Source: a virus. From it: a stretch of DNA of 20,302 nt. Below the pieces are notes generated by a model, which was not told the DNA's origin, did no database searches, and saw nothing but the letters and a program-made list of their open reading frames with translations. Below, in pieces: positions 1-16,616 of this stretch. Each line of letters begins with the position of its first letter. Within the stretch, counting starts at the first letter, position 1. The stretch lies in IMG/VR virus record IMGVR_UViG_3300030451_004463, positions 1-20,302 of that record; one strand, given 5' to 3'. The position numbers and the translations under genes are program-made.

Positions 1-2647
1 TGGGCATTTGGACTTCCACAGTTTCACCTTCAGAATTTGTAAAAGTACATGCTGCGGGTCCATTACATCCTGATTCCGTGCTGTGACATCCACCGATCTT
101 GCTCCAATTTCCACCGGGGTTTTCCTTGAAGCACTTGGTTTCTGTTTCAGGTACTTCAATGCATTCGTCGCAAGACGGTATTTGACCAGTGGTGCTACCA
201 CCCGTCTCGCCTCCTGTTGGTCCTCCTGTTGATCCTCCTGTCCCTCCTGTTCCTCCTGTTGTTCCTCCTGTTGTTCCTCCTGTTCCACTCCCGACAGGTC
301 CGGTCCAGATACCACACTTTTCGTAGCACTGCATTTGCGTTGTTTGAGAGCATGTGCCGTCGCGTTCGCAGCAACGCCCTATTGTGCTCCCCAGTTGTAG
401 GTCAAATGCTATGGTCACCGCACCATTTGTTGGATTCCAACCTGAACTCAACGTGCAGGGACCGGCGAGACCTCGTTTTTGCCAAGGATCGTCTCTTGGT
501 TCAAAAGTGCGGAAACTCATGTTTCCGAAATCAGTTTGGTATATAGTTCCTTCCATTTGAGACTGATAGGTGTAGGGTATAGAAATGCTGTATGACGTTT
601 GCCCTGGCGATGCTAGCTGGCTCCCAGAAATACCAGTACACCCGAAAGAGTGCGAGTTGGTGGACGGTGGATATCCCATGTGTGGTGACAAAAGCAACCC
701 GAACCCGAACACAAGTCCAGTATTACCCGTTTCGGCCTTGAGCCTCCTTGTCCAACCCCACACGCCAGTATCAGGGTCTGGGCCGTAGGTTTCAGCGCAA
801 CTTAAAAAGACATGTCCATAATTTGTAACCCAAATTGAATTTGTTGTACTGAAACTTGGAATCGTGCAGTCGATAGTTTCTGATTCAGTGTCTTCAATGT
901 AAGAGTAACCTCCGGAATGTCCTCCATAAACAGGAGGGTTCCCTAAAGGGTTAGGGTTGACCTGTTCACCCGTCATAACGTCGTGCGTATAAGAATTGAA
1001 TCTGTCTTTTCCAGGGAACATCGAGTACTGAATTCCACCTTGAAAAAAATTGTGCTGATCGACTCTTTGTAGCGTGAACGAAAGCCCGTTAAAAAAATTT
1101 GGAAGGGTTGAGTCTGCGGTTTGACCAAACTCGTCCCTGATGTTTTGTGCTTTAGGACTCCAGCCATCTGCGTTAAATGATAGCGTGATCGTATCAGGCC
1201 AGAGTATCTCAGCAGGATTGCCTTGCTCGTCTACAAGACAAGATGTCGGTGGTGGGCCACCACAATACCAACCAAATGCCCTTTCGTACTCGCTCCAGCA
1301 ATCGCCACAATTCTGGTCGCATTCATCTTTTGTTTTATGACATCCCGTAATTGGTGCGCCAGAAATAGGTGTGTTTGAGCACCTCTTATTTCCTGATGAA
1401 TCTTCATAGCAACGCCAACACTCACAACCGCTATTAATGCATTCCTGCAATGTCATGCATGTGTAAGTACCGGGATCATCTGTTGTTAATGTACCCGCAA
1501 TAACTGGATACCAATCAACCCCAGGTCTCTCGTCTGAGCATCTTTTTTCTACCGGAGATGTAAAATCAGGGCAACTTACAGACTCGCCCGGAGAAAAGTA
1601 AACCCCGCACAAATCGTTGCACTCTTTCCTTGTTGCGGCGAAAGACCTGTCTGGCATGCAGCACGTTCCAGATTCTTCTTCGGGTCCACTTTTAAATCCA
1701 AGCTTGAAGTTTACGTCCATGTTCCAATCAGCCGTAAACTCGTGATCGCCATGCCAGTTTGCACCTGGTGAACCACCTTGAGCACCTGTCGATCCGGTTG
1801 CGTAGCAGTATGTCGCAGAGAAATATGCAGTGTTGGTGCTTTGGTTGAAGTTCAAGGAGACATCTATTTCTTCTTCTTCAGTGTTTCGGTCGATTTCGTA
1901 GAATTCACTCCAGCCGCTAGCATTGTACTGATTTCCGAACATAGCCGAGTGTGAGTACAGGGGTTCAAAGCACGACCTGAAACTCATGTTATTGAAAGTT
2001 ATGCGAACACCGGCTGAATCGCCAAAGTCTTGGCATCTCAGGTAAATGACTTTTTTACTGCAACCGTAACCTGTACTCCTTACATGCCTCCAATTAGGTA
2101 GCGGAGGACTTGACGTGCAAACGTAGGTTCCGCAAGCAAACTTCCCGCCCCACGGATTATCCATAAAATCTTCGCACGTCACGATGTCTACTGTTGGTTC
2201 TACCGAGTAAGCAGTCCGTAGGACATTATCGTCGCCCACGTAGTCCTCTGTCTCGTCTCGGATAAAAGTGACATCAATACTGTTTAGAAGGGCTGCCATC
2301 TGCCCTGGATTTGCGTCGGGTTCGTAGTCGTATTTTGGTCCTGCTTGAACATTACTTGCAGTGACTTTCATGGTAATCTGACTAGGATACTCAATCTCAC
2401 GTTCCCCAAACTTGCAGTATGATGGAGGCGCGTAACTCTCGCATTCACCCGGAAAACTAGGGAACCTCCCCCAGCATTGATAGCAGTAGCATTTTTTCGC
2501 GCACTCTTCTTCGGAGGGGCTACACGAACTCCCGCGTTTTAGCGTATACCCTTGGCTTGCGGCTAAAGCTGGGTCTTTAAAGCACTTACGAAGCCCGTTT
2601 TTTTCGTAGCACTTCCAGCAATCACCACAGCACTCTGAGCAAGTCAT
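1..2647 (-). CDS. Cysteine-rich tail-tip or adsorption protein, C-terminus outside window
   Basis: An uninterrupted reading frame begins with ATG at 2647, directly after the TAA of the preceding gene, and stays open for 882 codons to the window edge, so its C-terminus is missing. A GGAG Shine-Dalgarno lies nine bases before the ATG. I count 53 cysteines. Short C..CW modules occur near residues 3-22, 49-59, 408-413 and 447-451. A 'CC...C...CG' motif occurs at residues 329-352 and again at 759-776. The motif N-M-S-F-R followed by F-E-P occurs near residues 220 and 709, which suggests two diverged copies of a beta-rich domain, each closed by a CC module. A Thr-Gly-Gly linker follows at about 787-820, then another cysteine-rich segment. 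No signal peptide or membrane segment is seen. Its place downstream of the tape measure suggests a tail fibre, tip or receptor-binding component. I recognise no named family; the role is inferred from position. Confidence 0.75.
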   Translation of the reverse strand, partial: MTCSECCGDCWKCYEKNGLRKCFKDPALAASQGYTLKRGSSCSPSEEECAKKCYCYQCWGRFPSFPGECESYAPPSYCKFGEREIEYPSQITMKVTASNVQAGPKYDYEPDANPGQMAALLNSIDVTFIRDETEDYVGDDNVLRTAYSVEPTVDIVTCEDFMDNPWGGKFACGTYVCTSSPPLPNWRHVRSTGYGCSKKVIYLRCQDFGDSAGVRITFNNMSFRSCFEPLYSHSAMFGNQYNASGWSEFYEIDRNTEEEEIDVSLNFNQSTNTAYFSATYCYATGSTGAQGGSPGANWHGDHEFTADWNMDVNFKLGFKSGPEEESGTCCMPDRSFAATRKECNDLCGVYFSPGESVSCPDFTSPVEKRCSDERPGVDWYPVIAGTLTTDDPGTYTCMTLQECINSGCECWRCYEDSSGNKRCSNTPISGAPITGCHKTKDECDQNCGDCWSEYERAFGWYCGGPPPTSCLVDEQGNPAEILWPDTITLSFNADGWSPKAQNIRDEFGQTADSTLPNFFNGLSFTLQRVDQHNFFQGGIQYSMFPGKDRFNSYTHDVMTGEQVNPNPLGNPPVYGGHSGGYSYIEDTESETIDCTIPSFSTTNSIWVTNYGHVFLSCAETYGPDPDTGVWGWTRRLKAETGNTGLVFGFGLLLSPHMGYPPSTNSHSFGCTGISGSQLASPGQTSYSISIPYTYQSQMEGTIYQTDFGNMSFRTFEPRDDPWQKRGLAGPCTLSSGWNPTNGAVTIAFDLQLGSTIGRCCERDGTCSQTTQMQCYEKCGIWTGPVGSGTGGTTGGTTGGTGGTGGSTGGPTGGETGGSTTGQIPSCDECIEVPETETKCFKENPGGNWSKIGGCHSTESGCNGPAACTFTNSEGETVEVQMP
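186..288 (-). repeat. Thr-Gly-Gly-coding minisatellite-like repeat
   Basis: On the minus strand this segment is an imperfect tandem run of GGA-GGA-ACA and GGA-GGA-ACA-ACA units with some TCA, CCA and GAG substitutions. It encodes a flexible TGG/TTGG linker of about 34 residues inside the cysteine-rich tail protein. The codon-level identity of units (mostly GGA and ACA) suggests expansion by slippage or unequal recombination. It probably separates the duplicated domain region from the next cysteine-rich segment. Confidence 0.8.
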
Positions 2648-3007
2648 TTAATCACACTCCGCTGCAACGAGTATGTACTTCGAGCTGCTTGACTCCTTGG
2701 CGACAAAACACTTTCCGCTAGTGGACGTTATCTCGAAGAATAAGTTGTGTGCAGAAACAGTCGCTGATGTAGCGGTCCAGGACCCCGAAGAATACGAGAG
2801 AATCGTCACCGACTTACTTGTTCCCTTTGCCCATGCGCCGCTAAAAGATGCAACGTGCTGACTAGATTTTGGTACAGAAATGCCTTCGGTGTGGTCTACC
2901 GGGAGTTTTTTTGCAGACCCACCATCTGAAGTCATAGCCTGCACTTTTGAGACCGTTGTCTGTAATTCCTCTGCAAATTCAGATGATACAAGGAATGAGT
3001 CTGCCAT
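2648..3007 (-). CDS. Small tail-region protein of unknown function (119 aa)
   Basis: The 119-residue product has a short N-terminal helix-like stretch (residues 10-25) and then a Ser/Thr-rich, probably beta-stranded C-terminal half with alternating hydrophobic residues. It has one cysteine at about residue 99 and another next to the last residue. It starts 12 bases after the 387-aa gene stops, with only a weak Shine-Dalgarno (TTTTTGAT before ATG), so coupling to the upstream gene is likely. Its TAA abuts the ATG of the cysteine-rich protein, making the two look like partners. No signal peptide or membrane segment is seen. I do not recognise a family. The position suggests a minor virion or tip-assembly protein; this is inference only. 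Confidence 0.7.
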   Translation of the reverse strand: MADSFLVSSEFAEELQTTVSKVQAMTSDGGSAKKLPVDHTEGISVPKSSQHVASFSGAWAKGTSKSVTILSYSSGSWTATSATVSAHNLFFEITSTSGKCFVAKESSSSKYILVAAECD

Positions 3008-3019
3008 ATCAAAAAGCCA

Positions 3020-4183
3020 TTAATTGAAGTTGTTAATTCCAAAGTTAGAAAAGTCGTCACCAAACTGTTGCAGTGGTTGCGTTGTGTACTTGTAAACAAT
3101 TGGCCCCTGATCTTCAGTAAGCTTTAGCGGGCGACCCAAACCGTCGAGTGCCACTGGTTGAGCTGACGGTCTCTGCTGGTATTTTGCTGCCGCATTAGCG
3201 TCGTTCGTTGGTACAGGTATAGAGACCATCGCCCTTACGTTTTCACCTGGTCTGACTAGAGCCTCTGGGGTGACAACTTCTCCGTTTTCGTCGTGAACCT
3301 TAGCAAGTTTGTTTTGGTCAACGGTAGCTACACCTAGACCTGAATTTACGATATTGAATCCACTATTAATTGCAGTCGTATCCCAGCCGACAACGTCACT
3401 GGCTCCCACTTGGTTCTCTAGTCGAAGCATCCTCGCTGCGAACGTAAACACAAGCTTGAACCCACGGAATTGACTGCCTCCAAATGATTCGACATGACCA
3501 GTGCTTGATATGCCTTGAAACATCACTTGGTGTTTCTGAAAAGTCGTGTTGCTAAAACTGAAAATGTCAGAGTTAATTACTCCGACATCACTCAAGAACT
3601 CAGAACCATCAGCGTAACTGTACTGAGTTATGGCAATGGTGATCACCGGGAACAGTTGAGTAAGACCGTCCATTAAATCTCCAGCAGCATTCGTTGGATG
3701 CTTTGGGTCTTCTAATGCTCCATTGTCTTTGTGCCTTCTACCCATTGGGTTAGCTGCTTGCTGCAAAGAAGAAGACATGGTGTACGACGGCGGTCTTACC
3801 TCTGGGGACTGCGTGCGGGGGTCTGGTCTATTTGACGATGGTTTAGTTCCTTGAGCAGACCCTGCTCCTCGACCCACAGTCACGCCACCTCCGCCACCAG
3901 AACTCGGCTGCCCTCCTGGCGTTGATCGGTATCGGACAGTAACTATCAGAACCAATCTTGAAGAACCCTCGTATCGTCCTTCAAAAGCAACACACGGTAT
4001 TGGGTCGTTCTGCGTGTAAACATCCCCGATGTTTATCCCAAGCACGGTCGGTATGATAATCGCCTCATCTGGGTTACTTTTGATTATCTTAAAAACTCGG
4101 GTCGCACTATCCGTGAGGGCGTTCCCCTCAGATGACCGAGTGAATGTATTCCCGCTATCAATTTCTTTAACTAACTTGGGCAT
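3020..4183 (-). CDS. Putative distal tail structural protein (387 aa, unknown family)
   Basis: The ATG overlaps the tape measure stop by one base (TAATG), and AGGAA lies just upstream as ribosome-binding site. The protein has two parts. Residues 1-88 form a compact, probably beta-rich domain. Residues 89-135 form a Gly/Pro/Ser-rich flexible linker containing a run of five glycines. Residues 140-387 form a larger domain with many aromatic and beta-prone segments, ending in a Phe/Asn/Gly-rich tail. No transmembrane segment, signal peptide or enzymatic motif is apparent. It occupies the place where siphoviruses normally encode the distal tail protein or baseplate hub, so a ring or hub role after the tape measure is plausible. 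I cannot match it to lambda M/L/J or to Dit/Tal families by eye. Confidence 0.75.
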   Translation of the reverse strand: MPKLVKEIDSGNTFTRSSEGNALTDSATRVFKIIKSNPDEAIIIPTVLGINIGDVYTQNDPIPCVAFEGRYEGSSRLVLIVTVRYRSTPGGQPSSGGGGGVTVGRGAGSAQGTKPSSNRPDPRTQSPEVRPPSYTMSSSLQQAANPMGRRHKDNGALEDPKHPTNAAGDLMDGLTQLFPVITIAITQYSYADGSEFLSDVGVINSDIFSFSNTTFQKHQVMFQGISSTGHVESFGGSQFRGFKLVFTFAARMLRLENQVGASDVVGWDTTAINSGFNIVNSGLGVATVDQNKLAKVHDENGEVVTPEALVRPGENVRAMVSIPVPTNDANAAAKYQQRPSAQPVALDGLGRPLKLTEDQGPIVYKYTTQPLQQFGDDFSNFGINNFN

Positions 4184-7100
4184 TACAGTATTCCTAATGA
4201 ATTTCCAACCTGATCGAGTCGCTCGTTGATTCGAGCCAGCTCCTCGCTCTGCTTCTGAAGCTCCACCAAATTCACATCAAGTGCAGCATCGTCTCCCCTG
4301 ATGAGTCGATTAAGTTCTGATTGTCCTTGGGTGGTCGTGATGTCTGTTGCTTGAAGTGCCGCTCGCGATGGTCCCTGAAGCAAGGCATTGCGTCGCTCCT
4401 GCTGGAACCCTGCCATGATGGTTCCTTGGAAGAATGAACCGCGAGCGTTGTTCAAACCTTGCAATGCAGCGTCACGCCCGTTTGTGTCTAGTTCCTGCCG
4501 AAGTGCGTTTTCTATATCAGTTGCTTGTCGCTCCAGTTCCTCCGCACGCTTTTGCGTGTCTGATAGAGTAAATTGACGACCACGCTCGATAGATGCGGCA
4601 AGCTCACCATCTTCCCTTCGCTGCTCCCGCAGTGCTTTTCTTCGGGCATTCTCGATATCCAAATCATCGGAGCGTTGCTCCAATCGCTGCACATCAGGTC
4701 GCGACTCGAACTCATCCTCAAGAACACCAGCGGTTCGTTCATCTGTCTGCTGCTTTTGCCTTTGAGCCTTGGCTACCCTTCTGTCCGCTGCATCTTTTTC
4801 TGCTTGTGTTGCATTTTCGTCGAGAGCGTCTCGCTCTGCCTTAGCCTTGTCAAGTCGTCGCTGTGCTCTCTCGCGATCCGCAACTGCTTGATTAGCCTCG
4901 GGAGAAAGTTTCCTCTGCTTCGCATCCCTGTTGAAGTCTTCTTGAAGCTTTCGTCGATCTTCTCTAATCGACTGCCTCTCGTCTCGGGTGCGCCTTCTGT
5001 CCTCATCAGCTTCTTCTTTATTCTTGCGTGCGTTAGCAACGTCTTCATCCGCTTTCCGCTTTTGCTCGTCGGTAGCGTCAGCAGGAAGTGCTTGTCGTCT
5101 CCCAATCGCTTCATTCAAATCTCTTCGAGCTTGCTCTGACTCGCTTGTTGCCTCTGACAGAAGCGTGTCTGCAAGATCACTCGCTACTCTATTGAGCGTC
5201 TCTGCGAATGTCTCTGCTGATCGTGCTGCCGACAGGTTTGCATCAATTTGCTGCTTGAGTGCTTCTTGTTCTGCCTGCAAATTCTTGACTTCATCTTGCG
5301 AAAGATCAGCTTCTTGGTCTGTCAACTGATCTGCTATTTCAGCGAAACGTGCTGCAAGACGATTTCGTTCCACAGCAACCGAATCAAACTCCTCTAATGA
5401 GTTCTCAATGATGCCTTGGGCCTCAGACAAAGCACCACTAATCCCTCGAGAAAACTCAATCGCTTGAACTAGAGTTTCGTCTCTAGCTGCATCCACTGCA
5501 CCCTGGAGTTTGTTTTGAGTATCCTGTAAGCGACTTATCTCTTCTGTTATAAACTCTGCTTCTCTACCCGTGGAGTTGTTTTGCAGGAAGTCTGTCAGCA
5601 GAACAATCTTCCTATCTATGCTTTCTATCTGCCTTGCAGCAGCTTCCGAGTCCAAAGTTCCATCAGCTAGCCTTATCTGCTCCCTAGTAAGGTCGTCTGT
5701 CCTTAACTCAGCTACATTAATATCACTAACAAGACCTGTAAGGTTCCGTGCTGATTGACGCAGGCTTTTGTTAACTTCGTCAAGTGATTTGTCTAAATCA
5801 GCTTGTCCAAAATCAAGCGACTCTCGCACTGCCGCTTCCCTCTGCCCAGGGAGCACTCTTCTTGCGAGGTCTATCTGCAACTCGGCAGCACGTCGCTCTT
5901 GCAGGGTCGTTGCCTCGTCGCGTCGTTTTGTTGCTAGCGCAAGCTCTGTTTCTGTCTTCCTAACAGCAGGATCAAATTCGGTTACGTTGCGCTCCCTCAA
6001 TTCTTTCTGCTGCTGAATTAGTGACTTAATCTCTGACGCAACGGATCTAGCCTCTTCTTGAGCTTGCGAAAATATTCCTTTAGTGAGCGAGGTCGAAAGT
6101 GCGTCGAAAGCTGACTTTAATTCTTCCACTAAATTCTTTTGGGTCTCAAGGACAGAATTCAGTCGCTCTAGGTCTGCCTTTGCTTCCTCTGATTTCTGTG
6201 CAAAGTTTGTCAAGGCAAGTACCGCTTGGGTTGCAACTGCGACTCCCAGTGCGGCAAACAGACCTGCGGTTCCACCGACAACAAAACCTAACTGCGTGAT
6301 ATTATTCTGCACTGCTCGAATCTTCTGCGTGATATCACCAGTGGAAGAGAAGAAGTCGTCAATGGCGAATGCAGCTTGTTGAAGACCCAATGAAAGCTTG
6401 TCAAAGCCACCCCTAGCTACATCTCCACCTCGCTTGATTTCATTGAAAGCCGCACCTACTCTTATTTTCCCTGTCGCTGCTGCAGCTTCTGCAGCTTCCA
6501 GCGACAATTTCTCCAACTCCTGATCGAAAGCTTTCGTGCCAATTGTGCCTTGTGTTGTTGCTCTCTGAACCGCTGCACGAAGTTTTTCAAAAGATGCTAC
6601 AGATTTGTCGCCTGCCGTTACACCAATCCTCAAAAGCATCTGCTCCAACGCCTTGACGCTTCCTATCGCCCCTCTTACGGAAGCATCTTGCAATGAGTCT
6701 GCAAACGAAGAAAGCCCTTGAGTTGCGCTGATACGGCGAACACTGGCAGCAAGTTGATCAACTTCGTTTGCTGCGTTTTCAATTTCTTCCTCAGAAGCAC
6801 TTGCACTCGCTCTGAGTCTGACAAACTCTTGCTCCGCTCTCCTTAATTGAGGAATCAAACCAGAGGCAACTGAATTTGGCAGTGTCTCAATGGTGTCTCG
6901 CAAGCTGACAGTCTTGGATCTCAACTTGTCCATGTCTCGCGATGCTTTGGATATGTTTGCACCAAGTTCTCGCGATGCTTTGTCTTCTGTGTTCCTCTGC
7001 AGGAATGCTGGGTCGAGTGGTGTGCTAGCCCCGGCAACAGCGTCAGGATTTGCGGTGACAACCTGCAAGAAGTCACTTGCATTCGCCATCTTGGCTCGAT

Positions 7101-8460
7101 TCAATGCGATCTTCTGCTCTCGCTCTTCAATCTTCTGAAGTTGTATCAAGTATGCTTCAATGTTTTGACTTGCACCTATTGCGGCATCTTTATTTGGGTC
7201 TACAACTTGCAGCAAAGAACTGGCGTTAGCTAAACGCTGCTTCTGAGCCTCTGCTTGTTTTTGAGCCAACGCAGCAGCTTCGGCCTCGACACTGTTTTTC
7301 GCCCTGAGTTTCTGAGTAAGTTGATCAACAACCTTGAGGGAATCCTCTAACTCATTCTCTGCAGAAATAATGTCGTTGAGTAATCCTGTGGCCCTGGTTT
7401 TCTCTAGGTTGGCTTGAAGCCTCAAAGACTCCTGTGTAGCCTTGCCAAGGTTCGCAACTATCTCTTTTATCTGCTGGTCAGATTGCCTTCGTGTTGCAGG
7501 TATGCTCGCTGCAGCATTGCTCGCATCTCGTGCATCTAAAAGTCTCTGCTGGAGGTTCGGGTCGGTAAACTCTAGTTCATTACCAGTTCGCATTCCCGCT
7601 GTTATGTCTGCTGCTTGAGAAAGCCTACTCATAGAAGCAGTCACCTTCTGGACTTTTGCTTCTAATCGACTGAAGTCTTTCTCAGATGCAAATGTTCCAG
7701 AGCGAATCGCTCGCTCCATTCCTGCGACTTCATTCTGAACTTGGCTAAGTGCCGGAATAAAACTTGCCTGAACATTAACACCAAGTTTAGAAAATTGCTT
7801 CGCGACATCACCCAAGGGTTTTGCGAGCTGGTCGGCTACTGATTTAAGTTGCTCAAGTTCTGTCTTGGCTCGCTCAAATGCACCTTGGTTAACGGCATTG
7901 AGAACTACTTGAATTTCCCTCTCATCAAGACGATCAATTCGCTCTTTGAGTTGGTCGATAGTCTGTACACCAATGACCTCAAAGGTGGCCTGGATCGCTT
8001 TGTCACCACGAATTGAGTCGAGAATTCGCTTCACTTGTTGAATATTGTCAACATTGAACTCGGACACAAGCTTTTGCTGCATGTCTGAGCCAAGTGAATC
8101 AAACTCTTGACGCAACTGGGTAATCGAGTCTTTGCCCGTTACCTTGATTGCAATGTCTGTATTCTTCTGAATAGAAGCAACGCTTCTCTTCAGTTGCTCG
8201 ATAGTTTTGATGCCACCATCGAAACCCTTGAAGGAAAGTTTCTGAGACGATGCTGCCTGCAATGCTCGCTGCACACGCTGAAGAGGCGTGTACATAGAAT
8301 CGAACGCTCGCTTCGCCTCATTTGAGGCTCGTGAGATGTCAGACTGAACAGCCTTGGCAAAACTCTTAGTCTCTTTAGCGGCCTCGTTCAGACTTCTGAC
8401 GTACCCAGCGGTATTCGCTGAGACGACTGCCGAAATCTTTCCTAAGTAGCCACTAGCCAT
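4183..8460 (-). CDS. Tail tape measure protein
   Basis: At 1425 residues this is the longest complete gene, and it follows the chaperone pair as tape measure genes do. It is overwhelmingly alpha-helical with heptad-like Leu/Ala/Glu/Arg patterns, consistent with extended coiled coil. A conserved-looking core at about 693-752 (ending in a Gly/Ala-rich hydrophobic stretch at 722-752) probably gives the membrane-inserting segment often seen in tape measures. Residues 1105-1290 are extremely rich in Arg, Asp, Glu, Lys and Gln. Internal repeats exist: an A-N-A-S..LQVV segment at 410-431 recurs at 458-479, and a charged helical unit at about 1108-1155 recurs at about 1195-1243. Using the usual 0.15 nm per residue, the tail would be roughly 210 nm. 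No lysozyme or peptidase domain is evident. The ATG overlaps the G-T stop by eight bases. Confidence 0.95.
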   Translation of the reverse strand: MASGYLGKISAVVSANTAGYVRSLNEAAKETKSFAKAVQSDISRASNEAKRAFDSMYTPLQRVQRALQAASSQKLSFKGFDGGIKTIEQLKRSVASIQKNTDIAIKVTGKDSITQLRQEFDSLGSDMQQKLVSEFNVDNIQQVKRILDSIRGDKAIQATFEVIGVQTIDQLKERIDRLDEREIQVVLNAVNQGAFERAKTELEQLKSVADQLAKPLGDVAKQFSKLGVNVQASFIPALSQVQNEVAGMERAIRSGTFASEKDFSRLEAKVQKVTASMSRLSQAADITAGMRTGNELEFTDPNLQQRLLDARDASNAAASIPATRRQSDQQIKEIVANLGKATQESLRLQANLEKTRATGLLNDIISAENELEDSLKVVDQLTQKLRAKNSVEAEAAALAQKQAEAQKQRLANASSLLQVVDPNKDAAIGASQNIEAYLIQLQKIEEREQKIALNRAKMANASDFLQVVTANPDAVAGASTPLDPAFLQRNTEDKASRELGANISKASRDMDKLRSKTVSLRDTIETLPNSVASGLIPQLRRAEQEFVRLRASASASEEEIENAANEVDQLAASVRRISATQGLSSFADSLQDASVRGAIGSVKALEQMLLRIGVTAGDKSVASFEKLRAAVQRATTQGTIGTKAFDQELEKLSLEAAEAAAATGKIRVGAAFNEIKRGGDVARGGFDKLSLGLQQAAFAIDDFFSSTGDITQKIRAVQNNITQLGFVVGGTAGLFAALGVAVATQAVLALTNFAQKSEEAKADLERLNSVLETQKNLVEELKSAFDALSTSLTKGIFSQAQEEARSVASEIKSLIQQQKELRERNVTEFDPAVRKTETELALATKRRDEATTLQERRAAELQIDLARRVLPGQREAAVRESLDFGQADLDKSLDEVNKSLRQSARNLTGLVSDINVAELRTDDLTREQIRLADGTLDSEAAARQIESIDRKIVLLTDFLQNNSTGREAEFITEEISRLQDTQNKLQGAVDAARDETLVQAIEFSRGISGALSEAQGIIENSLEEFDSVAVERNRLAARFAEIADQLTDQEADLSQDEVKNLQAEQEALKQQIDANLSAARSAETFAETLNRVASDLADTLLSEATSESEQARRDLNEAIGRRQALPADATDEQKRKADEDVANARKNKEEADEDRRRTRDERQSIREDRRKLQEDFNRDAKQRKLSPEANQAVADRERAQRRLDKAKAERDALDENATQAEKDAADRRVAKAQRQKQQTDERTAGVLEDEFESRPDVQRLEQRSDDLDIENARRKALREQRREDGELAASIERGRQFTLSDTQKRAEELERQATDIENALRQELDTNGRDAALQGLNNARGSFFQGTIMAGFQQERRNALLQGPSRAALQATDITTTQGQSELNRLIRGDDAALDVNLVELQKQSEELARINERLDQVGNSLGIL

Positions 8461-12442: not shown

Positions 12443-12651
12443 TGTTTTCGTCGCCTTCTTGGCTTCTTGTTGATTACGGCACGCTCGGTTTTTTCCTCTG
12501 GAGCGATTGCTGCCTCAACGGGCGACTCTTCTTCTTGGTCCAGGACCTCAACGAGTCCTCGAGCCTTCAGAATCTTCACCATAGGTTCAGGCCAATCGAA
12601 CTCGCCACCTCGTCTATAAATGTCAAAAGCACTTAGTACACGAACCTTCAT
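12439..12651 (-). CDS. Small basic-tailed head-module protein (70 aa)
   Basis: I choose the ATG at 12651 because it overlaps the glycosyltransferase stop (ATGA) and has GGGGAG seven bases upstream; an in-frame start at 12696 would add 15 residues inside the upstream gene. The protein begins M-K-V-R-V-L, carries the segment I-L-K-A-R-G-L-V-E-V-L that resembles small phage proteins found next to gp6-like adaptors, then an acidic region and a strongly basic end (K-K-P-R-R-R-R-K-Q). The basic tail could contact DNA or the acidic inside of a connector. No enzymatic motif is present. Function is unknown. Confidence 0.7.
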   Translation of the reverse strand: MKVRVLSAFDIYRRGGEFDWPEPMVKILKARGLVEVLDQEEESPVEAAIAPEEKTERAVINKKPRRRRKQ

Positions 12652-13373
12652 TTTACCACTCCCCAAGCTTCTGCCGGTGCAGTCCGGTTCTGCCAATAGT
12701 CGTTAGTGTGCTGTTGAACCTTACATGTCCCCGATGAACGTGAAGGCCAGGTGATCATAAGTTCGGCGTGTCCGACACTCACATTTGTGGCAATTCCAAG
12801 TGTGTTGCCCGCCTGCTTGAACTTTCTCCAAAAACCAATGTCGGCATCTTGGTGATCACCATCGTATGTGCCGTTTTCGTCTGCTCTTTCAACAAACCAA
12901 GGTTTTTTCATCTTCTTGATTGCAGCAGTTCGTATGAACGTGAGTCCAAAATGTGCAGTATCAACTTGCTGCACAGGCTCATCAAACCAACTGTCATCAA
13001 CGGACGTTCGCTCCTTCACGTCACTACCGTCTAAGGCGAACATCACGCAGTTTGCTTCTCTTTTTGACTGAAGCGGTGCGATGGCATCTTTGCCACTCCA
13101 CATCAGTAAAGTAAGCAAGGCTTCAACAGTCCTTGCATTGAATACAGTGTCGTAATCGATGGTGAGAATTACATCGTGAGTGTCCAGAACAGGCTCAATT
13201 GCCTTTTGTAGACACTGACCCCAAAAAGCACCTGTGACTTTTATCGGTGCTATGCCATAAGGGGCTAACGCTGACGAAACGCAAAAGAAGTTATCCGTGA
13301 ATCCTAGTCTCGGGGTACTCATTACAGCCGCGACTTTGACTTCGGCATCAACCGAACCAACTTTAACAAGCAT
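12648..13373 (-). CDS. Glycosyltransferase-like protein (GT-A fold) in the head module
   Basis: The 241-residue product begins at ATG 13373, preceded by GGAG at seven bases; an in-frame GTG at 13460 falls inside the terminator and is rejected. The sequence fits a GT-A-fold enzyme: V-A-A-V-M-S-T-P strand and loop at about 14-21, the metal-binding D-Y-D at 73-75 within L-T-I-D-Y-D-T-V-F, H-F-G-L-T-F-I-R at 141-148, K-P-W-F at 157-160, D-A-D-I-G-F-W at 176-182 and V-G-H at 200-202. Acceptor and donor are unknown. It could glycosylate a virion or cell-surface component. It lies alone between the capsid terminator and the connector unit, and it is a non-core gene. It may be an accessory insertion. 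Confidence 0.8.
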   Translation of the reverse strand: MLVKVGSVDAEVKVAAVMSTPRLGFTDNFFCVSSALAPYGIAPIKVTGAFWGQCLQKAIEPVLDTHDVILTIDYDTVFNARTVEALLTLLMWSGKDAIAPLQSKREANCVMFALDGSDVKERTSVDDSWFDEPVQQVDTAHFGLTFIRTAAIKKMKKPWFVERADENGTYDGDHQDADIGFWRKFKQAGNTLGIATNVSVGHAELMITWPSRSSGTCKVQQHTNDYWQNRTAPAEAWGVVK

Positions 13374-13378
13374 TGAAT

Positions 13379-13399
13379 CGCTCCAAAGGTAAAGGAGCG
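13379..13399 (-). promoter_or_regulatory. Hairpin hiding the glycosyltransferase ribosome-binding site
   Basis: On the minus strand CGCTCC (13399-13394), loop TTTACCTTT, GGAGCG (13384-13379) makes a perfect six-base-pair, GC-rich stem. The second arm contains the GGAG Shine-Dalgarno seven bases before the ATG at 13373, so folding would block initiation. A competing stem upstream is described separately. Confidence 0.45.
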
Positions 13400-13412
13400 G
13401 GCGCGCCTCCTT
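13392..13412 (-). promoter_or_regulatory. Competing hairpin that would free the ribosome-binding site
   Basis: On the minus strand AAGGAG (13412-13407), loop GCGCGCCCG, CTCCTT (13397-13392) makes a perfect six-base-pair stem. It shares CTCC with the hairpin at 13379-13399, so only one can form. The AAGGAGG here is itself a perfect Shine-Dalgarno with no suitable start codon following, which suggests a pairing role. A further short stem (GGCGC/GCGCC, 13400-13417) is possible. Confidence 0.35.
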
Positions 13413-13443
13413 GCGCCTTTTCGGTACGTCCTGACCTTCCCGC

Positions 13444-13483
13444 AAAAAAAGAACCCCCACCGGGATTTTTAGTCCCGGTGGGG
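13444..13483 (-). terminator. Intrinsic terminator after the major capsid gene
   Basis: On the minus strand CCCCACCGGGA (13483-13473), loop CTAAAAA, TCCCGGTGGGG (13465-13455) is a perfect 11-base-pair stem, followed by GTTC and seven Ts. It begins 21 bases after the capsid stop. This is the only strong intrinsic terminator I find in the window, and it lies inside the structural operon, so part of transcription must read through or start again downstream. Confidence 0.93.
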
Positions 13484-15011: not shown

Positions 15012-16616
15012 TTAGCCTTGCAACTCAGTCCTAAGCACGGTTGCCTTCAAACCAGCGATCTTTGCTTGGATGTCAAGAGTCTCTACGCCCCTCTCTTCCT
15101 GCTTGCCATCACCACACTTTTTGTCGCACGGTGTTTCCTTGCAGCAGTCATCACCACCCGGAAGTGATCGCTCTTTAGACGATTTTGGATGAGACGACGG
15201 TAGCAGGTCGTTGTCTGTCGTGTATTTTGAGTTCTTCGGTGAACCGTTTCGCAACAGATACAGGTATGCATTTACCCGAGCCATTGCCCAAGCACCTCGA
15301 CTTACATTTGGTCTGTGGCTTGTCGAGTACGCTCCAGCTCCTCTCCGGTAAACAGCAAGAAGTTGACCGCTTGTAGCCTTTGTCCAAGAAGGTTTCTTCG
15401 CCTTTTTCATTGAAGAATTATGGTCCTGGACCTTCTTTTTGATAGCAGAACGCACTTTTTCGCTTACTTTTATCTTGCCAGAAGCATTCTTGGCAGACCC
15501 TTCTTTGTTTTTATCGCTTCCTTTTATCTGGTCTTTCTTAGGTGCTGGTGTAGAAGCAGCGGATCGTTCACCTGCCCGCTCTAATTCTGCGACTTTTCTT
15601 TCGGCCCACTTTGGAGATGCACCCCAAAGAAGCCAAGCAACTGCACCTGGGGTTTCTTTACCAGCATCCATCCACCCCTCTTTTTTGTCGCTAGCATGCC
15701 GCTTGAACCAAGCATTCATCTCAACAACCCAATCTCGGTTCATATTTTCACGGCGAGCAAGCTTATTGGCTCTTGCGACAGTCTCAGGCTTTAGTCCATC
15801 ACCAGACTTACCTTCTTTGTGAAGCCGCAAGCCTCTTTTTGCTGCATTTGCCATCTTAGAGGTAGGTTTGAGGTTAACTTCTCGGTTTTCTGTAACCTCT
15901 TCCTCGGATCTTTTGGCGTAAATGTCAATTTTTTCAACTTTTGGCTTTTCTTCAGCCTTTGGTGGCTCCTCAACCTCTTTTTTCTCATTGAGAAGCGGAT
16001 TTTCAACGCCTTCATCCTGAACTTCTTCTGGATCAGTCAAAACAACCTCTGGATCGACCTTTTTAGCCTCAGATTTTGCTCTTTTAAGTGCTCTTTGGCT
16101 AACAAAAGCCTCTGTTGACGGGTAAGCAGGCTCATCTACTGGCCCAACATCTCCCAAGAAGTCAAAGGAGCGTATTTCGCGTATCATTCGGCCTTCTTCG
16201 TCCTTCTGCCACGACTCATTTTTGCTAGAGGAACGAAATGCAAACGAACTTCCTTTGATATCTTTTCGCTCGAGGCTTTGAACGATATCAGCGTCTGCCG
16301 GTTTCGGGTCTATTTCGTACCGAAGTCCTCTGTCGTCGAGGTAAAGACGAACTGTTCCTGCAGAAGTTCTTCCAAGCAATCGATCATGGTTGTACCTGCC
16401 GAACACGTCGGGGTTTTTACTAAGGACTTCGTCAAATGCTCCTGGCATAATTCGTTCGACGAAACCACCCAAGTCTTGGCTTTCGACGGGTGCATCGTCT
16501 CTGTGGTACAAAGCAGCGTAACCTTGGATGACAGTTCTGCCATTTGCATCCTTTCTGACTTCGAGTTCTGGTGACTCAGCCACCATTCGACGCTCTAATT
16601 TGTTCTGCTCGTCCAT
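15012..16616 (-). CDS. Prohead maturation protease with two extra C-terminal domains
   Basis: The 534-residue protein is far longer than HK97 gp4 (about 225 aa). Residues 15-170 are the peptidase U35-type protease: G-Y-A-A-L-Y (32-37), Y-N-H-D with probable catalytic His77, K-G-S-S-F-A-F with Ser123/Ser124 as nucleophile candidates, and D-V-G-P-V-D-E-P-A-Y-P (156-166). A Lys/Glu/Pro-rich linker spans 175-250. A second domain at about 253-348 contains R-G-L-R-L-H-K-E-G-K and W-L-L-W-G. A third at about 382-476 contains V-Y-R-R-G-A-G-A-Y-S-T-S-H-R-P and W-A-M-A-R-V-N-A-Y. A cluster C-C-(x4)-C-(x3)-C lies at 491-501. The role of the extra domains is unknown (scaffolding or shell binding possible). 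Its start overlaps the portal end by 22 bases, with AAGAGG upstream. Confidence 0.9.
   Translation of the reverse strand: MDEQNKLERRMVAESPELEVRKDANGRTVIQGYAALYHRDDAPVESQDLGGFVERIMPGAFDEVLSKNPDVFGRYNHDRLLGRTSAGTVRLYLDDRGLRYEIDPKPADADIVQSLERKDIKGSSFAFRSSSKNESWQKDEEGRMIREIRSFDFLGDVGPVDEPAYPSTEAFVSQRALKRAKSEAKKVDPEVVLTDPEEVQDEGVENPLLNEKKEVEEPPKAEEKPKVEKIDIYAKRSEEEVTENREVNLKPTSKMANAAKRGLRLHKEGKSGDGLKPETVARANKLARRENMNRDWVVEMNAWFKRHASDKKEGWMDAGKETPGAVAWLLWGASPKWAERKVAELERAGERSAASTPAPKKDQIKGSDKNKEGSAKNASGKIKVSEKVRSAIKKKVQDHNSSMKKAKKPSWTKATSGQLLAVYRRGAGAYSTSHRPNVSRGAWAMARVNAYLYLLRNGSPKNSKYTTDNDLLPSSHPKSSKERSLPGGDDCCKETPCDKKCGDGKQEERGVETLDIQAKIAGLKATVLRTELQG

Follow-up and report, generated by a model that had tools for sequence, protein, structure and literature searches.

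The cysteine-rich open reading frame (ORF) described here probably encodes a modular tail-tip adhesin of uncultured siphophages, in which an N-terminal Cys cluster would serve for attachment and would be followed by exchangeable, disulphide-stiffened surface domains. The main new facts are that such a cluster is nearly universal in the proteins encoded at the same place in related viruses, and that the modules occur in both split and fused forms. The virus record from which the ORF comes (IMG/VR record IMGVR_UViG_3300030451_004463; positions 1 to 20,302, the whole of which was analysed and is called the window below) is a 20.3-kb fragment that carries genes for terminase, portal, an HK97-type capsid protein, tail assembly chaperone, and tape measure. 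The tape measure gene is followed by genes for proteins of 387 aa and 119 aa and then by the Cys-rich ORF. The features are listed in Table 1.

The ORF runs for 882 codons from an ATG on the minus strand (2..2647) with no stop inside the window; it is open at the window edge, and its C terminus thus lies outside, as the initial annotation had said. The 53 Cys residues counted in that annotation were also found, and they make up 6.0% of the chain, compared to 0 to 2.4% in the 18 further window ORFs counted. They are gathered in four blocks, at residues 1-78 (16.7% Cys), 328-480 (11.8%), 758-790 (15.2%), and 826-882 (10.5%), and the two long regions between blocks have 2.8% and 1.4%.

Table 1. 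Features of the Cys-rich ORF and of the genes preceding it, in window coordinates
Feature	Position	Strand	Remarks
Cys-rich ORF, 882 codons, 53 Cys, 3' end outside window	2..2647	minus	
N-terminal Cys cluster CSECCGDCWKC + Cys module 1, residues 1-80	2408..2647	minus	repeat of 397-489; equivalent cluster in 22/23 lineages; beta-hairpin + helix, scoring best within a poor AF2 model
Strand-rich region 1, residues 84-327, begins YPSQITMKV	1667..2398	minus	low-confidence model
NNMSFRSCFEP, motif copy 1 of the initial annotation, residues 219-229	1961..1993	minus	
CC module 1 (GTCCMPDRSFAATRKECNDLCG), residues 326-360	1568..1672	minus	alignment; hairpin + helix, pLDDT about 56-67
Cys module 2 (CECWRCYE...TKDECDQNCGDCW...PDTITL), residues 397-489	1181..1459	minus	repeat of 1-93, 0/400 shuffles
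Strand-rich region 2, residues 484-757, begins PDTITLSF	377..1198	minus	no clear likeness to region 1
GNMSFRTFEP, motif copy 2 of the initial annotation, residues 708-717	497..526	minus	non-collinear with copy 1
CC module 2 (GRCCERDGTCSQTTQMQCYEKCGIWTG), residues 756-785	293..382	minus	alignment
Gly/Thr linker (TGG)n, residues 788-822	182..286	minus	
Cys module 3, residues 826-882, cut by window end	2..172	minus	weak likeness to modules 1 and 2
119-aa gene, directly upstream of Cys-rich ORF, order conserved	2648..3007	minus	
387-aa gene, possible distal-tail-like protein, anchor for finding relatives	3020..4183	minus	AF2 pLDDT 81; residues 1-97, weak tail-tube/Dit-like matches (Z about 6 or less)
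Tail tape measure protein, no Cys	4183..8460	minus	phrog_33360, E 8.8e-06

Internal repeats were assessed by comparing local alignment scores with those of composition shuffles. Residues 1-93 align with residues 397-489 with a score of 106 (shuffles, 35.6±6.1; 0/400), and the CC modules at 326-353 and 756-785 align with a score of 51 (23.4±4.8; 0/400), which bears out the duplication of Cys modules proposed at the outset. The similarity of Cys module 3 to modules 1 and 2 is weak (26/400 and 14/400 shuffles). The motif [ST]xxECxxxC, picked post hoc from the sequence, is seen four times in the ORF against 0.035 expected, and the looser [ST]xx[EDQ]Cx(3-5)C, also picked post hoc, six times against 0.24 (0/5000 shuffles for each). 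The initial annotation had described two copies of an N-M-S-F-R...F-E-P domain, each followed by a CC module. The part concerning the CC and Cys modules stands, while the long regions carry no detectable duplication: the NMSFR..FEP pair scores 44 (26.2±4.9; 6/1000 on preselected regions), and this match is real but short and non-collinear, lying ~130 residues past the start of beta domain 1 and ~225 past that of domain 2. Regions 79-328 and 471-758 have a top local score of 56 (1/400) that comes from one 54-column stretch, and the N-terminal parts of the two long regions score 32 (26.4±4.6; 135/1000); duplication of the beta domain was rejected on these pairwise tests. Since the NMSFR match is short and the long regions are not clearly alike, it is the Cys modules, and not the whole domain, that are tandemly duplicated. 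A P-x-x-I-T-[ML] strand does open each of the long regions, behind the respective Cys module (residues 88 and 484).

No relatives of the Cys-rich protein were found among viral contigs or plasmids, and against phages there were only three chance-level matches (best E 1). The 119-aa gene searched alone and the first Cys-module alignment used as a query likewise had no relatives, and no Pfam, PHROG, NCBIfam, or PDB-sequence family fits the protein. A match to PF00073 (E 0.024, below the cut-off) and one to PDB 8pjw (E 0.0045 over 36 residues, with no stretch passing alone) were taken as chance. Cys-rich YTV proteins have been reported from planctomycete cell walls (PMC8567305). A consensus of the CC repeat, CC..T..C..G.F.G.G..C, matched nothing in the plasmid and phage collections searched.

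The 387-aa protein provided a more productive marker. It has one relative at 71% identity, 20 when a two-row alignment was the query, and 44 with a ten-row alignment; none was found in the host-genome contigs or in the annotated phage collection searched. Grouped at 90% identity, the relatives form 23 lineages, the window included. The AF2 model of this protein is good (pLDDT 81). Residues 1-97 have weak matches to distal-tail, tail-tip, and terminator folds mixed with ribosomal S24e, at Z 6.2 and below, where Z 8 is the threshold advised for trusting such matches (VIA), and Foldseek against the PDB returned nothing at E ≤ 0.001. The model thus suggests, without proving, a distal-tail role, with which it is compatible.

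Other genes of the fragment have features of their own. Cys is absent from the tape measure proteins (1421-2214 aa) of every lineage checked (the window, 1425 aa; L002, L022, L025, L026, L027, L028, L030, and L045), which sets them apart from the product of the Cys-dense gene three places downstream. An ORF at 15012-16616, between the portal and capsid protein genes, is a probable prohead protease by position and sequence and has a small Cys cluster, DDCCKETPCDKKCGDGK, near its C terminus (15102-15152, minus strand). The ORF at 12648-13460 (minus strand), between the capsid and head-tail connector genes, looks like a putative glycosyltransferase (LTIDYDTVF).

The order tape measure, 387-aa gene, 119-aa gene, Cys gene recurs in 44 viral contigs of about 23 lineages and persists as identity in the 387-aa protein falls from 71% to about 30%. 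In nearly all relatives a gene of 114 to 305 aa follows the 387-aa gene, and a Cys-cluster gene comes next, its start overlapping or adjoining. In 22 of the 23 lineages, a 25-residue stretch near the N terminus contains at least 4 Cys; the same holds for 5 of 275 other ORFs, one of which is itself a Cys-module gene. For L037 and L038, the ORF entered in this count was assigned manually. Examples are MTCSECCGDCWKC in the window, MLFGCSPCCGGCSKC in L014, MACPCCGPKWACYQCCC in L026, and MLGSDCSKCCGTCDQC in L038. The exception is L022, with MLGSPCSPCCS; its cluster-mate L024 has MLGSPCSPCCGC. The closest relative, L002, whose contig ends after 171 codons of the gene, aligns with the window protein only at the N-terminal CxCWKCYE (1/1000), and it is by position and the Cys cluster that the same-slot proteins are linked as kin.

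Beyond the cluster, the lineages diverge widely, which would suit a part in contact with the host. L024, L026, L028, L030, and L039 have single strand-rich domains of about 170 to 350 aa, and L014 has a protein of about 1060 aa with GGSGY repeats, for which the PHROG matches are virion-structural, baseplate-wedge, and tail-fibre families. L008 has a Cys-dense region with 41 Cys in 329 residues, and in L005 and L009 Cys-dense regions are followed by PATR and cadherin-like parts. L025, L026, L028, L030, and L050 encode the Cys module downstream in a gene of its own (gene B, MPCYxA...YATQQECEQEC..GACC...C....C.C.G.G..F.G.GT.C), which stands alone or is joined to a strand-rich domain of its own (L025 and L050; L052 is similar). 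In the window ORF, several units of this kind seem to be strung together in one chain. Against a profile of the relatives' module B, the window protein scores 23.9 bits in total (maximum in 200 shuffles, 22.1) and its single modules fall inside the shuffle range; these scores were obtained without the null2 correction, with which hmmsearch suppressed all Cys-rich matches. The link between the window modules and the gene-B module is therefore suggestive only.

Many of the Cys and Cys-module genes end in NPLP (L026, L028, L030, L031, L034, L037, L039, L040, L042, and L052; NPFP in L032), at 12500-12550 in L026, 12775-12825 in L028, and 12600-12650 in L030. The codons of this end vary at third positions, and it overlaps the start of a downstream gene (ITCHRxxLExRCxERGYTLDEVMPCV). 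A 700- to 900-aa protein with the sequence SISGLALWLDAADxSSL is encoded far downstream in several relatives (18391-20679 in L014 and 18312-20453 in L009); we take it to be LamG/concanavalin-like. The L014 copy matches the virion structural family phrog_10356, and the protein is a candidate for a second adhesin of the group.

The Cys residues are conserved preferentially: 29/31 are kept between L016 and L017, against 192/457 (42%) of other residues; 47/49 against 535/746 (72%) between L005 and L009; and 13/15 against 567/1015 (56%) between L003 and L014. In aligned pairs, whole genes have dN/dS values of 0.16-0.34, and the Cys-rich part of L005/L009 has a value of 0.15. In 13 Cys-dense stretches (modules), CxxC occurs 22 times against 27.7 expected, which is no excess, CxC 18 times against 27.8, and CC 36 times against 28.5, slightly above expectation; His accounts for 10 of 1205 residues (0.8%). 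Across 23 N-terminal clusters, CxxC occurs 41 times against 30.1 in within-span shuffles (7/2000). All of these motif counts come from related sequences, and their independence is overstated. They suggest that the modules are more disulphide-like than zinc-like, and we infer two chemistries, a metal-knuckle-like one at the N terminus and a disulphide-like one in the modules beyond it. When residues 1-395 were modelled with AF2 from three rows, the result was poor (pLDDT 38), with no readable metal-site or disulphide geometry; only the Cys blocks at residues ~11-40 and 326-360 attain a pLDDT of about 56-71, each forming a hairpin and helix with ECxxxC.

A uniform chemistry along the chain has to be weighed against these two. 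It is a serious possibility, to which we give somewhat less than even weight, that all the Cys residues, the N-terminal cluster included, form structural disulphides in a metal-free adhesin whose oxidation would take place after lysis or in oxidising surroundings; such a protein would account for modules that are enriched in CC, lack a CxxC excess, and are scarce in His, and disulphide networks are reported from phage tails (PMC11945409, PMC10172136). However, the CxxC excess in the N-terminal cluster is typical of metal knuckles, and metal at a tail tip has precedent. The converse, in which every Cys cluster is a metal site (zinc knuckles or Fe-S) in an expanded version of the iron-binding domain of the lambda gpL and RcGTA hubs, can draw on the four-Cys Fe-S clusters of those tail tips (PMC10721106, PMC7296036) and on the strong conservation of Cys, yet we consider it unlikely, given main modules with no CxxC excess, very little His, and common vicinal CC.

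The virion location of the protein is itself deduced from gene position and same-slot relatives, and the L005 and L009 relatives bear repeats of extracellular type (PATR and cadherin-like), which would also suit a secreted or moron-type Cys-rich protein encoded behind the tail genes by chance. This seems quite improbable, because the gene keeps its position behind the 387-aa and 119-aa genes from one lineage to the next, with starts that overlap or adjoin, because same-slot relatives match virion-structural PHROGs, and because the N terminus of the window ORF, as read from the sequence, does not look like a signal peptide. The conserved slot after the three upstream genes and the virion-structural matches of the L014 repeats support the original assignment to a tail protein. 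The gene lies directly after the tape measure and distal-tail genes (the latter identity being only suggested for the 387-aa protein), and a conserved N-terminal module is followed by a variable remainder; both traits are those of an adhesin.

In the modular tail-tip adhesin that we favor, the short N-terminal CxxCC..C..C cluster, kept in essentially all lineages, would be the constant module and probably docks the protein onto the end of the tail that the 387-aa and 119-aa proteins would form; the Cys spacing of the cluster favors a small metal knuckle (Zn or Fe-S), although disulphides are possible. The exchangeable part would comprise one or more strand-rich domains, two in the window ORF, separated by Cys modules of the CC or TxxECxxxC type. 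Once the virion leaves the reducing cytoplasm, these modules probably become hairpin-helix spacers stapled by disulphides, and they may present rigid domains to the host surface, where receptor contact would occur. In the window phage, units that are single or on separate overlapping genes in relatives may have been multiplied and fused in one chain. More tentatively, the proteins could constitute a new tail-tip family in which an N-terminal CxxCC metal knuckle is a universal socket and exchangeable, partly disulphide-stapled domains are plugged in, fused, or split; we regard this as possible but doubtful. If true, a metal-bound module and redox-matured modules would be combined in one chain.

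No described protein family with such an architecture was found among the libraries and literature searched. The architecture points to the use of Cys in constructing and varying the tail tips of phages, with the split and fused forms illustrating a route by which such adhesins grow. In this phage group, the N-terminal cluster can readily serve to locate the host-contact gene. The protein also calls into question the assumption that a virion assembled in the cytoplasm has little use for Cys-dense domains. The earlier view of disulphides as out of place in phage virions was too strong: the tail of T1 is reported to have an extensive disulphide network (PMC11945409), as is that of Milano, cited in the same paper, and a disulphide network is also reported for crassvirus (PMC10172136), besides the Fe-S clusters held by four Cys in the lambda gpL tail tip (PMC10721106) and in the RcGTA hub, gp13 (PMC7296036).

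With lambda gpL and RcGTA gp13, the window protein would share a conserved Cys group in a tail-tip protein, and its N-terminal spacing is metal-compatible. No Pfam, PHROG, NCBIfam, or PDB-sequence match connects it to the gpL-type hub family, and the structure model is poor. In the hubs, four Cys lie in the iron-binding domain (PMC10721106, PMC7296036), whereas the window cluster lies at the N terminus, is more densely packed (CxxCC..C..C), and precedes hypervariable domains and additional Cys modules. The resemblance to siphophage receptor-binding and tail-fibre proteins lies in a constant N terminus, a variable modular remainder, and a fixed place after the tape measure region; the constant module here differs in being a Cys cluster of ~15-25 residues, and no known adhesin family matches. 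The tails of Milano, T1, and crassvirus use virion disulphides for stability, as would apply here. There, as far as the cited accounts describe them, a few Cys cross-link subunits, whereas the window chain has 53 Cys in intra-chain modules.
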